In this document: positions 20,295 to 25,023 of the stretch, in pieces
How positions within the stretch are numbered: the stretch's first letter is position 1
Layout of the letters: each line of letters starts with the position of its first letter
Source of the DNA: Ignavibacteria bacterium
Lineage (GTDB): Bacteria; Bacteroidota; Ignavibacteria; Tepidaquicellales; OLB5
Length of the DNA stretch: 44,975 nucleotides
Assembly: GCA_030835085.1 (NCBI GenBank)
Contig: JAUQWQ010000171.1
Span: 1 to 44,975, forward strand
Direction: 5' to 3'
Translations under genes and position numbers: made by a program
The notes under the pieces: model-generated
Seen by the model: the letters and a program-made list of their open reading frames with translations, nothing else
Database searches by the model: none
What the model was told of the DNA's origin: nothing

Positions 20295-21263
20295 TTACCT
20301 GAATGTAACCGGTATCTCTGATTCAACAACATTCACAAACAGCCATTTTTCAGTTTGATTGGAAACATTATTTTTTACCAGCTTTGGGTAGAATTTATAG
20401 CTTCTTACAAGCGCACAGCCTGTACCGGGCATTATCTTAGCGCCATCCATTACACTTTTGAAATATTGTGCCTGTATCTGGCCAATACATTTATCCTGTG
20501 TTACCGGACCAGTAAAGCGGCCACAGGGCTGCAGGTTTCTTAAATTCTGGAGTTCATCAGCAACCGGACCCAATAACCATACTGCTACATAATCCGGTGG
20601 TACCGTTACGCTATTACTGCCTGCAGAAACCTTTTCTGCAGTAATGGTGAAATCCATTTCAGTGCCAAGCACTGCCTCTCCTGTAATACTGCTGATGTAA
20701 AATTGATCCGGAAAGTATCTTATACTGTCAGTTGCATCACTGAAACCTGAAAAATCTGCAGAAGGATCAATGCTCCATACAATAGATGGACTTGTAACAT
20801 TCACGCAGCTCCTTAAATTAAGATATTCATTCATAGCATACACAATCCCTCCGTAAAGATTCGACTGAATGAGAGTATTCCCGGCTACTGTTACGTTAGA
20901 AAGCGGAACAGGTTTAAAATTCCCTTTATAATACCTCATTTCAGCGTAGCAGGTTGAAAGCATCATTTCGGGGCTTTCATTACTGTTAAGCTTCCTGTTT
21001 TCAATTCTCCTGACAAAGAATAAATATGCATTATATTCATATGATTCATTATCAGCGGTATTTTTTAATACTTCGGTTCCTATGCTTACTCTGTTCAACC
21101 TGTCAAGCCCGTCGAAGGATACTCCCGGCATATTTCCGATGTATTGGCTTTCCCAGGAGTTAACGGTAAAGTTATCGCTAAAAAGATGGTCTTGAGCTTG
21201 AGGTTTTACTGTTAAGAAGGTTATAGATAAAACGAAAAGCGCTTTCAACATTTTTGCATTCAT
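20295..21263 (-). CDS. exported protein of unknown function
   Basis: I do not recognise this 322-residue protein. It has an N-terminal hydrophobic signal (MLKALFVLSITFLTV, with Met5 as an alternative start) ending near KPQAQ. The rest is predicted mostly beta and soluble. Several cysteines are spread through it, as expected for a periplasmic or surface protein. It is the last gene of the four-gene unit led by the ribbon-helix-helix regulator and lies 41 bases after the preceding gene. Nothing suggests enzymatic motifs. Confidence 0.75.
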   Translation of the reverse strand: MNAKMLKALFVLSITFLTVKPQAQDHLFSDNFTVNSWESQYIGNMPGVSFDGLDRLNRVSIGTEVLKNTADNESYEYNAYLFFVRRIENRKLNSNESPEMMLSTCYAEMRYYKGNFKPVPLSNVTVAGNTLIQSNLYGGIVYAMNEYLNLRSCVNVTSPSIVWSIDPSADFSGFSDATDSIRYFPDQFYISSITGEAVLGTEMDFTITAEKVSAGSNSVTVPPDYVAVWLLGPVADELQNLRNLQPCGRFTGPVTQDKCIGQIQAQYFKSVMDGAKIMPGTGCALVRSYKFYPKLVKNNVSNQTEKWLFVNVVESEIPVTFR

Positions 21264-21304
21264 GATAAATAGATTAATTTTTAATTACTGATTTTTTATT
21301 TTGT

Positions 21305-21775
21305 TTAGTTCTGACCCAGACAGTAAGATATTATCATGGTTTCGCCAATTTTGTTTGTGCAGCACATACTTCCAAAATATATGCTGTCCATTTGTATTTC
21401 CCTTAGCCCTGTGGTTTTATTCAATATCAGTACTTTTCCCGAAGAAATTACAACACCTTTTACCATAGTCCATTTTTCATAAAGTCCTGGATCGTTTGCA
21501 ACACTGTCTGCAGTAATATTCCCCGTGCCTTTATAATTGAAAAAAACATCATATATTTTTTTTGCTGCCGGGCTGTTTGTGTGGCTTCTGACTGTCTCCA
21601 GAAATACATCATAATCAGTGAATACACATAGATCATTGTTGTCTATCAGGGTTATTATTCTGCCTTCGGCTTTCAGCAGAGTTGAATCTGCCAAATCCTT
21701 TATTTTTTGATTTTCCTGCTGACTAAAAAGAGGCATAACTGAAGTTACAAAGATTATGAAGAGAACTATTTTCAT
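21305..21775 (-). CDS. small exported protein of unknown function
   Basis: This 156-residue protein has a clear signal peptide (MKIVLFIIFVTSVMPLFSQQ) and no lipobox. The mature part has four cysteines, including an adjacent pair in YFGSMCCTNKIGE, and a lone YCLGQN at the C-terminus, which suggests disulfides outside the cytoplasm. No family is recognised. It begins 3 bases after the 970-residue protein stop and is certainly co-transcribed with it. Confidence 0.75.
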   Translation of the reverse strand: MKIVLFIIFVTSVMPLFSQQENQKIKDLADSTLLKAEGRIITLIDNNDLCVFTDYDVFLETVRSHTNSPAAKKIYDVFFNYKGTGNITADSVANDPGLYEKWTMVKGVVISSGKVLILNKTTGLREIQMDSIYFGSMCCTNKIGETMIISYCLGQN

Positions 21776-21778
21776 TTT

Positions 21779-24691
21779 CTACCTTTCTAATCTGTCGTTA
21801 ATATTTATTTGCCGGTAACAATCATCCGGGAAAGTACCCGTTAAACCGGGCATACCGCATAATTGAGAGATATTATTTACAACTATGGGAGTTGAATTTC
21901 TTTCTTCAAGCCATGAAGGCGGTATAAAAGAAAGCATAAATAAACCCATCGCCGCTTTAATAACCGGAGAATAGTAATACATTACACACAGCGGGTTACC
22001 GGTACTTTCATTTCCTCTTACCCCATTACTATGGTGAACTATATGACAGCCATGCATTACTTCATGTATCACGTTCTTGGAAATCAAAAAATCAACCAAA
22101 AGGTAGTTTCTTGCAGGGTCATTTATACAATCTAAAACTGTTTCAAGAAAATGTCTCGTATAAGTTTCTAATTCGCCATTGAAATTCCTGATATTTATAT
22201 TTTCGCCTGTAGTTGCCCCCAGTGCTGAATCAATTAAACGAGGCAAACTTTCAAGTATTTCTTTCCTCATTCTATCAGGAAATATTACACACCTTCTGAC
22301 ATATATGGGTGGACCCCAATCGCAATAACCTTTAACAACTTCAGGTTTATTCCTGTACGGATCAACTAAACCATCCTGTTTAATTATATGAATTGCATAT
22401 TTAACACCCATATCATGTGAACTTGAAAAATTAACCCACCTGTATCTAATTGTGTCATCACCGCCCGCAAGCGATCCATAAACAGTTCTTTCATCAAGCT
22501 TAACCAGATTAATACCGGTCAGGCGTTCAAAAATTGAAATAGAAAGAAGCTCATTATCATCTACTACACACAGCTCTTTTCTAACGGGATTAGTTCTTAA
22601 ATATTGCAGTTCACCTGATGGCAGTTTTTCAAACAAACCCCTGTACTCTTCAAACAGGGTTAATCCATCGCCTCTGTTATTCTGTAATGGTTCATCTTCA
22701 TCCCATGTTAGGGGTTTGCCTTCAACATTGTTTTGTGTTTCCCATGCATCAGCTATCGCGTCACCATCACGATCAACAGGTATCGATATCATTGAATTAC
22801 CTGTCTGTTCTTCACTTGCGTTGTACCAGGTTCCGTTGATCTTTACCTGTACCTCAAGCATACAATGTGCAGCATAGTCGTTAATTGTAACGGCAACCCT
22901 TCTGATATCTTCTCCTTCTGCCCTTAAAGAGTCAGGTGAAATGTTTAACCCGGGATTGTTAGACTGTTTAAAGAAAGCATCAAGGCTTGTGTTATAGCAT
23001 ACTCTTTTATCATTTATGCAGACACCCAAATTGCTTGATACATCTCTTAAAATATATTTAACTGACTCAACCCTGCAATCAGGACCAGCCTGTACATCAA
23101 GCTCTACAATAACTTCTGAGCCTGCAATGGGCAAATAGTTACTGCTGATTTGTTTTATTAACACAACCGGGCTGCATTCGCCGGTATCATTTTCATTACC
23201 TGTATTATTGCTGCCGTTATTTCCTTCTGTTCCTGTGGGATCACCTGTTGTTCTGGGTCTGCGTGGTCTTCCTCTCGGGTTACCTACGGAACCCGGATCA
23301 GGATCAGCTTCATAACCTCCTGTCCCAAGCCGCTGGTTTGTGGTATTTGCAGGCACCATTGTTAATCCTGAAAACAGGTCAAACAAACCCGGGTTCGACT
23401 GTCCGCTGATATTCCCGGTCTGATTGCAGAATTTAGAATTAGAATAATATTCAGCGTTATTGATCATATCATATGCATTATCATAACTATCAATATTTAA
23501 AGATCTATCATTATTCAGTAATACTCTTAAGGCTTCGGTTATTTCATAAATGCCAAGAATTTCCTGCTCTGTCAAGCCGGCTTTCTTTTTTGATTTCAGT
23601 TTTCCTGCATATTCTTTAAGACCATTTAACTTATTCATAGATAAGTTTGTTCTTCTGATAAATTCATCGGATGTAAGCTGGTTTGAATACTGAGTGTCTG
23701 ATATCCCGATACCGGAGTATTTAAAGTCCCGGGAAACTACCCATCCAGAGTTATTAATCACGAAAGTACTGCCATCTGATGCAGTTACCTTAACAACCGC
23801 AAATTTATCAGCGCGATATTTTCCCTCTATTAATTCCGGTGTTTCCGTGTAACTTATTTCCAAATAATAATTGCCTGACTTTAATCCGGTTATCCTGTTC
23901 TTTGCATCTCTTGTTATTACAACCTGCATTGGTTTATAAAATTCAAAAAATGACTTTGTGTAAAAACCTGAATAGCTTCTTGCATAATATCCTTTTCCAA
24001 TATAGTTCCAGGCACCATCGTATATGGAATCGATCGGCAAAAAGGCATTAATGTTAACAGGAACAGCAAATTGTTCAATTTCACTGAAAGATCTCCGGGG
24101 GTCGAGTATCATCTGCCTTAATCCCCGGTAGTAATTTGCCGCTTCTTTCAATTCATCAGGAAGCAGATCAAGTACATCATTTGTTTTAAAATTAAGTTTA
24201 AGGATTTCATCTGATGTTAACAAAGGTAAAACCCTGGCCTGTAAACCCGGATCAAGATCTCTGAAATTTGTACCTGATTCAATAGCCCAAAGCAGCAGTT
24301 GTACATCTTCACGAGATATCTCAGGGTGGTTATTTCTTCTACTCAGTATATTCTTAATAATTTCTTTCATATTGCCTTTTAACGGTGCAAGCAAATATCC
24401 GTTGCCGGAAACCGGTCCTCTTTTCCCGGCTTTAAGACAATATGATTCTAGCCAGGTATAGAAATATCCTTCATTATTATTTTCTTTCTTAAATTTTTCT
24501 GCGTTAAGTATATCAAAGTTATTAAGCCATGGCGTAACCTGATATGCATCATCAAATGATGTAGTAATTGCGCTGCCAGGCTGCCAAAGGTCCAACCCCG
24601 GAATCTCGGTTTTTAATATATCATCTATCTGGGAATATGTCATCTGTACCGCAATACAAAACAACATTGCCAACAGCATTTTCTGTTTCAT
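21779..24691 (-). CDS. large secreted protein with TSP3-like calcium repeat and metzincin-like zinc site
   Basis: The 970-residue protein starts with a signal peptide (MKQKMLLAMLFCIAVQMTYSQ). Residues up to about 450 form a soluble region without a family I know. Next comes a Gly/Pro/Asn/Thr-rich linker (about 450-510). A calcium-binding-type repeat follows: DRDGDAIADAWE at 640-651, then NNRGDGLTLFEEY. Near the C-terminus is HEVMHGCHIVHH starting at residue 876. This gives HExxH plus a third His at the metzincin spacing (HExxHxxHxxH, with His in place of the usual Gly). NPLCVMYYY follows with Met904 in a Met-turn-like context. This suggests a secreted zinc protease. The ATG overlaps the regulator stop (ATGA). 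Confidence 0.75.
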   Translation of the reverse strand: MKQKMLLAMLFCIAVQMTYSQIDDILKTEIPGLDLWQPGSAITTSFDDAYQVTPWLNNFDILNAEKFKKENNNEGYFYTWLESYCLKAGKRGPVSGNGYLLAPLKGNMKEIIKNILSRRNNHPEISREDVQLLLWAIESGTNFRDLDPGLQARVLPLLTSDEILKLNFKTNDVLDLLPDELKEAANYYRGLRQMILDPRRSFSEIEQFAVPVNINAFLPIDSIYDGAWNYIGKGYYARSYSGFYTKSFFEFYKPMQVVITRDAKNRITGLKSGNYYLEISYTETPELIEGKYRADKFAVVKVTASDGSTFVINNSGWVVSRDFKYSGIGISDTQYSNQLTSDEFIRRTNLSMNKLNGLKEYAGKLKSKKKAGLTEQEILGIYEITEALRVLLNNDRSLNIDSYDNAYDMINNAEYYSNSKFCNQTGNISGQSNPGLFDLFSGLTMVPANTTNQRLGTGGYEADPDPGSVGNPRGRPRRPRTTGDPTGTEGNNGSNNTGNENDTGECSPVVLIKQISSNYLPIAGSEVIVELDVQAGPDCRVESVKYILRDVSSNLGVCINDKRVCYNTSLDAFFKQSNNPGLNISPDSLRAEGEDIRRVAVTINDYAAHCMLEVQVKINGTWYNASEEQTGNSMISIPVDRDGDAIADAWETQNNVEGKPLTWDEDEPLQNNRGDGLTLFEEYRGLFEKLPSGELQYLRTNPVRKELCVVDDNELLSISIFERLTGINLVKLDERTVYGSLAGGDDTIRYRWVNFSSSHDMGVKYAIHIIKQDGLVDPYRNKPEVVKGYCDWGPPIYVRRCVIFPDRMRKEILESLPRLIDSALGATTGENINIRNFNGELETYTRHFLETVLDCINDPARNYLLVDFLISKNVIHEVMHGCHIVHHSNGVRGNESTGNPLCVMYYYSPVIKAAMGLFMLSFIPPSWLEERNSTPIVVNNISQLCGMPGLTGTFPDDCYRQININDRLER

Positions 24692-24855
24692 TTCTTGGTT
24701 CTTTCTGATTTGATTTTATTGTAATAATCTCTGCATGCAATATTAATTACAGAATCACTGCTGGTATCAAGTATTTTCTGTATCCTGTTTATCAATTCAT
24801 GTGTTTCAGGCCTTAACCTGTACCCTTTTGAAATTTTCACTGTCTTCTTTTTCAT
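24688..24855 (-). CDS. small ribbon-helix-helix (Arc/MetJ-type) regulator
   Basis: I place the start at the ATG at 24853-24855, giving 55 residues. A longer in-frame start at 24936 would add a hydrophobic 27-residue leader that does not fit the fold. The pattern is RHH: a short beta strand (KTVKISKGYRL), helix 1 (PETHELINRIQKIL), a DTSSDS turn and helix 2 (VINIACRDYYNKIK), with a basic tail. RHH proteins bind DNA as dimers. Its stop overlaps the next gene's start (ATGA), so it is translationally coupled to the secreted protein. Two direct repeats lie 11-39 bases upstream of its ATG. It is probably autoregulatory (inference). A DNA-bound antitoxin is a possible alternative, but the neighbour is not a known toxin. 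Confidence 0.7.
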   Translation of the reverse strand: MKKKTVKISKGYRLRPETHELINRIQKILDTSSDSVINIACRDYYNKIKSERTKK

Positions 24856-24865
24856 TTTTATCACC

Positions 24866-24894
24866 GTGCACAATTGAGCGCAACAGTGCACAAT
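24866..24894. promoter_or_regulatory. paired GTGCACAAT direct repeats, likely RHH operator
   Basis: GTGCACAAT occurs at 24866-24874 and again at 24886-24894, exactly 20 bp apart (two helical turns), just upstream of the RHH gene. Each contains the palindrome GTGCAC. Tandem short sites with fixed phasing are the usual operator form of ribbon-helix-helix repressors. The link is inferred from position. Confidence 0.6.
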
Positions 24895-25023
24895 AATAAT
24901 CCATGGTAATCTCAGGAACAAAGAAAATATATACAAAATATAACAACGAACAAATTTGTGCTTTCCGAATATTCTCGTTTTTTTACATATTTTTGCATAT
25001 TTTGAGGAATAAATATAATAACA

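Follow-up and report, generated by a model that had tools for sequence, protein, structure and literature searches.

A probable self-regulated ribbon-helix-helix operon carrying an exported metzincin-type protein with exchangeable neighbours in an Ignavibacteria genome

Metzincins combine the zinc motif HExxHxxGxxH with a Met-turn. Archaemetzincins (M54, AmzA) are marked by HEXXHXXGXXHCX4CXMX17CXXC and a Cys4 zinc site (PMC3427221), while the pappalysins and cytophagalysin (M43) are bacterial metzincins that are exported and have Ig-like regions together with a Met-x-Tyr tyrosine switch, the switch residue of pappalysins being located two residues after the Met-turn Met (PMC11674741). The 970-aa protein described here shares these M43 features, and one of 45 members of its family was matched by the Pfam M43 model at an E-value of 0.029 only. 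Archaemetzincins were its best fold match and also have a Cys two residues before the Met-turn Met, but they carry a Cys after the third His where the window protein has a His and another Cys spacing, and the protein, which lacks the M54 signature, is unlike them exported and multidomain. Adamalysins, ADAMs and snake-venom metalloproteinases (M12B) were the next best fold (Z 6.4-7.4), share CxM at the Met-turn and, through the Reprolysin models, supplied most of the sub-threshold Pfam matches of the family; unlike them the window protein has no visible disintegrin-type domains and has calcium-type loops and an Ig-like region in front. On the regulatory side, the ribbon-helix-helix (RHH) repressors CopG, NikR and ParD have in common with the first protein of the locus a short strand-helix-helix pattern and tandem boxes at their own promoters. 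The window protein differs from these in its invariant GYRL...TH, its divergent TPR-type partner, its many copies per genome and in having no match to Pfam RHH_1, a model that found no match anywhere in the window genome.

The window (the whole stretch of 44,975 nucleotides that was analysed, contig C80 of a 4.05 Mb source genome) includes four minus-strand genes in the ORF listing, coding for a 55-aa RHH-type protein and proteins of 970, 156 and 322 aa. The layout in the original prediction, with an ATGA overlap between the first two genes and gaps of 3 and 41 bases after them, was confirmed from the ORFs and the sequence (Table 1). The first gene codes for the RHH-type protein, and a pair of GTGCAC boxes is located at that gene's own promoter. 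We consider it probable that this row represents a cargo operon placed behind a self-regulating RHH switch and including an exported metzincin-type zinc protease with exchangeable neighbours. The RHH ORF spans 24688-24936 on the minus strand with ATG 24855 as the likely start, and its sole upstream extension reaches an alternative start, TTG 24936. The upper limit of 24894 given earlier for the operon falls inside the promoter/operator rather than at a start codon. The nearest named relatives sharing the 970-aa protease were Ignavibacteria MAGs.

Table 1. Positions of the genes, protein segments and regulatory elements considered (window coordinates unless a locus is named).
Feature	Position	Strand	Remarks
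322-aa Sec-exported protein	20295..21263	-	sub-cut-off Sortase match; 85% relative in G008
156-aa Sec-exported protein	21305..21775	-	no known family; 63% relative in G009 beside different cargo
970-aa Sec-exported protein	21779..24691	-	signal peptide, N-domain, linker, Ig-like region, calcium-type loops, metzincin-type domain
Metzincin-type catalytic domain (predicted)	21782..22597	-	residues 699-970
Met-turn C902-V-M904-Y-Y906	21974..21988	-	downstream of zinc-site motif
Zinc-site motif HEVMHGCHIVHH	22031..22066	-	residues 876-887; putative ligands H876, H880, H886; putative general base E877
TSP3/EF-hand-like loops DRDGDAIADAWE ... GDGLTLFEEYRG	22637..22774	-	residues 640-685; near-invariant in 45 homologues
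N-terminal domain of 970-aa protein	23717..24691	-	residues 1-325
RHH-type protein, 55 aa	24691..24855 (stop included: 24688-24855)	-	'KGYRLRPETH' strand and two helices
Probable RHH operator	24866..24891	.	GTGCAC at 24866-24871 and again at 24886-24891, the box starts 20 bp apart
Promoter candidate TTTG (24919-24922), 20 bases, TATTATTG (24891-24898)	24891..24922	-	Bacteroidota-type
TPR-type protein ('SPxFN' family), 483 aa	25024..26475	+	divergent to RHH gene
Small exported peptides	L121:6783-6989, L123:2473-2685, L124:5145-5330(-), L126:7358-7567, L147:5791-6063(-)		divergent to TPR genes

Full-length relatives of the 970-aa protein (890-975 aa, 30-34% identity) were found in five other genomes (G005, G007, G010, G011 and G013). 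The motif HE..H.....HH was invariant in all six full-length sequences, an alignment unselected for the motif, so that the loss of HExxH in close homologues, against which the protease reading had been staked, was not seen; invariance at this level of identity argues that the zinc motif is not a chance occurrence. The relatives in G007 (HEIGHGLGLDHH ... CPMRY) and G013 (HEVGHACGIPHH ... CPMSY) are both textbook metzincin forms with the canonical Gly. A genome-wide scan with the window protein alone as query found no relative, whereas an alignment of the catalytic region used against 84,980 species genomes identified 55 loci, spanning Ignavibacteria, Myxococcales, Mucilaginibacter, Acidobacteria, Verrucomicrobia, Planctomycetes, Armatimonadetes, Kapaibacterium, Aminicenantes and others. 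HE..H.....HH was present in 45 of the 55, with CxMRY following in most, and the ten loci without it included some truncated at contig ends and two with HEIGHxxGLxHP. Four more of the ten, L061, L069, L079 and L085, had lost the zinc motif and are probable pseudoenzymes.

The 45-row alignment was picked for the motif and its invariance there is in part due to selection, from which the six full-length sequences are free. Outside the selected motif the conserved positions were the Gly of GDG and C902 (each 45/45), C945 and C958 (44/45), Y906 (43/45) and M904 (40/45). The Met-turn-like CVM proposed at 28 residues past the first motif His was upheld (residues 902-904, with Met904 at that distance), as was a TSP3-like calcium repeat earlier in the protein at about 640-685. 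Models from Pfam and NCBIfam gave no match to the window protein at E-values up to 1, and none of the metallopeptidase models (M10, M12A, M12B, M43, M54, M57, M66 and others) passed its curated cut-off with the family members tested; the best Pfam value among alignment members was Reprolysin_5 at 1.2e-4, and the best whole-protein values were below cut-off. Since no model reaches its cut-off the family is uncatalogued, and the membership of the metzincin-type protein in a widespread uncatalogued family is well supported.

After the N-terminal domain, which ends at about residue 325, the protein continues with a low-complexity linker and an Ig-like region at about 510-635, followed by the calcium-type loops. 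The zinc motif had been placed at the end of the protein; it is present, but begins 95 residues before the C-terminus. HExxH and the third His at metzincin spacing (H876-E877, H880 and H886) are present in the window protein, and Y906 occupies the position of the tyrosine-switch residue in other metzincins. The His replacing the usual Gly was also correctly read (His883), but this position varies in the family (G in 17, N in 16, S in 6 and others in 6 of 45), such that 33 of the 45 members have the Gly or Asn expected before the third ligand while the window copy is the only one with His. Because the window copy lacks the Gly/Asn although most of its family has it, the protein is called metzincin-type and is not placed in an existing family.

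An AlphaFold model of the catalytic region (45 sequences) had a pLDDT of 84 and a pTM of 0.86. The best Foldseek match against the PDB was the archaemetzincin 2x7m (E 0.019); rabies phosphoprotein and actin, which also appeared in that list, were dismissed as noise at E-values of 0.15 and above. All 50 rows listed in the VIA structural comparison were metzincins (archaemetzincins, adamalysins, ADAMs, ADAMTS and MMPs; Z 6.2-7.7), headed by 2x7m at Z 7.7 and then adamalysins and ADAM10 at about 7.2, scores that are middling in that a Z below 8 could come from arrangement alone, and in a list from which the absence of a family does not exclude it. A sequence profile compared with PDB sequences matched astacin (0.023) and myroilysin (0.034), the latter aligned through the Met-turn, with snake-venom enzymes, serralysins and MMP-1 also in the list. 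As the uniform structure list agrees with this independent profile search, a metzincin-type fold is the best reading of the modelled domain, an assignment resting on consistency rather than on one strong score (VIA Z below 8, Foldseek E 0.019). The metzincin-type fold and motif of the original prediction are supported by conservation, profile matches and the AlphaFold model together.

As it alone has His at the consensus Gly/Asn position, the window copy is a putative enzyme. That His, unique among 45, would fit a protein that has the fold of a metzincin but binds without catalysing, this copy having drifted from activity, as would the four natural relatives without the motif and the archaemetzincins, the closest fold, for which no proteolysis was found in tests (PMC3427221). 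The window copy nevertheless retains its three His together with Glu, Met and Tyr, and the H, E, H and HH positions are invariant over 45 divergent sequences, though these were picked for the motif; we regard the loss of catalysis as unlikely.

In the preferred reading, an active zinc protease, H876, H880 and H886 would hold the zinc with E877 as general base, M904 in the Met-turn and Y906 as the transition-state tyrosine. The protein would be exported by Sec, in keeping with the signal peptide seen, with its C-terminal 270 residues forming the metzincin-type zinc domain next to the calcium-type loops, and it may cut proteins or peptides outside the cytoplasm. The earlier description as secreted holds as far as the Sec-type signal peptide; for export beyond that step, no T9SS-type C-terminal domain was seen. 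A stand-alone exported protein of 450-520 aa, which occurs once in most genomes of the order, including the window's own genome (contig C73, 40% identity), has residues 1-325 in common with the 970-aa protein, as does a protein ending in a C70 papain-like cysteine peptidase (L026:493-2454(-), Pfam E 2.7e-13, 31% identity). That two unrelated peptidases carry this front part suggests that the N-domain may serve targeting or stability rather than a zinc-specific latency. A cysteine switch through Cys85 of the N-domain was considered and rejected as the likely role, the Cys also being kept in the C70 fusion and the stand-alone copies.

For the RHH-type protein 56 distinct relatives were identified, the majority next to a copy of the TPR gene; GYRL and the Thr were invariant in the family. 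At least one GTGCAC box was present in 17 of the 17 RHH/TPR intergenic regions first read, usually two, and, in the 260 bases preceding the core, in 37 of 40 further RHH loci of other genomes, where 1.8% would be expected for each locus (binomial P about 2e-61). Within the window genome GTGCAC was found at 9/9 RHH copies compared with 1/46 non-RHH copies of the TPR neighbour family. The candidate promoter has one mismatch to TAnnTTTG, which we take to be the Bacteroidota-type consensus, the last base of its -7 element (24891) is common to the box at 24886-24891, and the same promoter pattern adjoins the boxes in many RHH loci. No paper on GTGCAC with ribbon-helix-helix proteins, on a TAnnTTTG promoter or on Ignavibacteria paralogous families was found in the literature searched. 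An RHH profile gave a weak in-register match to RHH_1 members (hhalign E 0.0019 in one comparison, with 1 of 150 column shuffles scoring as well), and a PDB profile search with the RHH alignment returned nothing useful. The strand-helix-helix pattern, this weak profile match and the linked boxes hint at an RHH protein. The repeated boxes at the gene's own promoter are as expected of an RHH repressor, and the local switch of the original prediction gains its support from the distribution of boxes at RHH promoters: the operator is well supported, the protein would act on this DNA, and self-repression is the simplest mechanism. An RHH dimer would bind the GTGCAC boxes and block the promoter, repressing the RHH gene itself and the coupled 970-aa gene.

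RHH paralogues share a near-identical strand, with GYRL invariant, and the same box, which makes cross-binding likely and would suit a regulator that works in trans on every GTGCAC promoter instead of only on its own, or a protein left over from a toxin-antitoxin pair. Against these ideas, no toxin-like partner is present, the partner gene is TPR-type and divergent, and the exact box pairs of the window genome number six, four of them at RHH genes; we give both ideas together a low probability. The two exact GTGCAC pairs away from known RHH/TPR loci are at G000:C99:5728-5750 and G000:C108:12685-12706.

The divergent TPR-type gene belongs to a family with 56 matches (about 55 copies) in the window genome and 15 to 53 in the nine other genus-mates searched, and with few outside the order. 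A divergent neighbour was present at 46 of the 55 copies examined, and about nine copies had an RHH gene and boxes. By a crude signal-peptide rule and simple gene calling, with background genes taken from the same neighbourhoods, the first divergent cargo was exported-looking in 72% of cases compared with 49% of all other genes there, and a T9SS-type C-terminus was present in 48% against a background of 18.5%. Five small exported peptides of 61-90 aa with a common C-terminal pattern, each divergent to a TPR-family gene (Table 1), are possible signal peptides. In L126 the TPR gene is preceded, at distances of about 470 and 750 bases, by a pair of almost identical short ORFs that are rich in Cys, have a GGG leader (MPKKLKLKLEDLKIQSFVTLLTEDEKK...KGGG) and resemble ribosomal peptide precursors. 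In L120, L122, L141, L142 and L022 the RHH position upstream of the TPR gene is occupied by a small FN3-like protein of about 102-111 aa.

A TPR superhelix was predicted for the TPR protein, as is found in the RRNPP receptors (Rap, NprR), in a model with a pLDDT of 75 that was built from 5 sequences only and is confident in the C-terminal half alone. RapI (Z 14.9), phi3T Rap (14.6) and NprR (14.1) were among its best rows, and together with the small exported peptides beside some TPR copies they would suit a sensing pair in which a Rap/NprR-like TPR receptor, on binding a secreted peptide, controls the RHH repressor. However, a Z of 14 is within reach of helical repeats through their arrangement alone, and LGN scores higher, so that the resemblance may be only that of helical repeats; about 46 of 55 TPR copies are without RHH, and unlike RRNPP receptors the TPR protein has no DNA-binding domain, about 55 copies and no peptide gene beside the window copy. 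Such a pair appears doubtful, a little more so than the preceding alternatives. Under the self-regulating switch a signal would lift the RHH repression, possibly through the divergent TPR-type protein.

The same four-gene order was sought in related genomes and was not found: among 44 genomes of the order the full-length protease was present in 6, a 322-aa relative in 7 and a clear 156-aa relative in 2, with all three exported genes in the window genome only. The same chromosomal place in G008 has a CAAX protease, the 322-aa gene (at 85% identity), a TPR gene that belongs to another subtype, a HAD hydrolase, purK and purE, and is without the RHH, protease and 156-aa genes. In G009 an orthologous RHH/TPR pair (TPR protein 70%) is accompanied by the 156-aa gene (63%), and a BNR/T9SS protein stands in for the protease, beside truA. 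An RHH gene heads a BNR protein and the metzincin in G010, while the metzincin is downstream of a TPR gene in G007 and G011, has a convergent TPR gene in G005 and none nearby in G013, such that only 2 of the 6 genomes having the metzincin have it headed by an RHH gene. A Sortase assignment for the 322-aa protein was rejected, as the match was below cut-off (19.5 bits, cut-off 26.6) and the Cys of 'STCYAE' is Ile in the relatives L113 and L114.

Based on this synteny we infer that RHH/TPR modules hold exchangeable cargo and that the four-gene row of the window is a recent assembly, in which the 156-aa and 322-aa genes would be exchangeable neighbours and not fixed subunits. The original prediction of a secreted protease with dedicated co-secreted partners under a local switch is thus retained for the metzincin fold and motif and for the switch, and finds no support as to dedicated partners or a four-gene row conserved across genomes. 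That the four genes form a dedicated system for a secreted protease and two matching partners is very improbable, for all the 3- and 41-base spacing, common strand and export of all three proteins, given that G008 and G009 have partner genes but no protease, that five genomes have the protease but not the partners, and that all of them are together in one genome only.

The RHH/box/TPR arrangement recurs many times beside exported proteins in these Ignavibacteria genomes, and the larger surprise lies outside the coordinates studied, in the roughly 55-copy divergent TPR-type family. It is conceivable, as a speculation that we hold to be improbable as a whole, that about 55 cassettes genome-wide have a TPR-type receptor facing an exported-protein operon, with an RHH repressor and a GTGCAC operator at about nine of them, that cells switch surface or secreted cargo cassette by cassette on small exported peptides or other signals, and that cargo such as the metzincin moves between cassettes. 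The metzincin-type family is spread over Ignavibacteria, Acidobacteria, Verrucomicrobia, Planctomycetes, Myxococcales, Armatimonadetes and others, where for want of a Pfam or NCBIfam model its genes are annotated as hypothetical, and the present alignment could serve as such a model. With the GTGCAC rule, a regulator that occurs in many copies acquires an operator open to direct testing, in a group whose regulation is little known. The TPR family, lying next to genes for exported cargo, offers a lead on how these bacteria choose what goes outside the cell.
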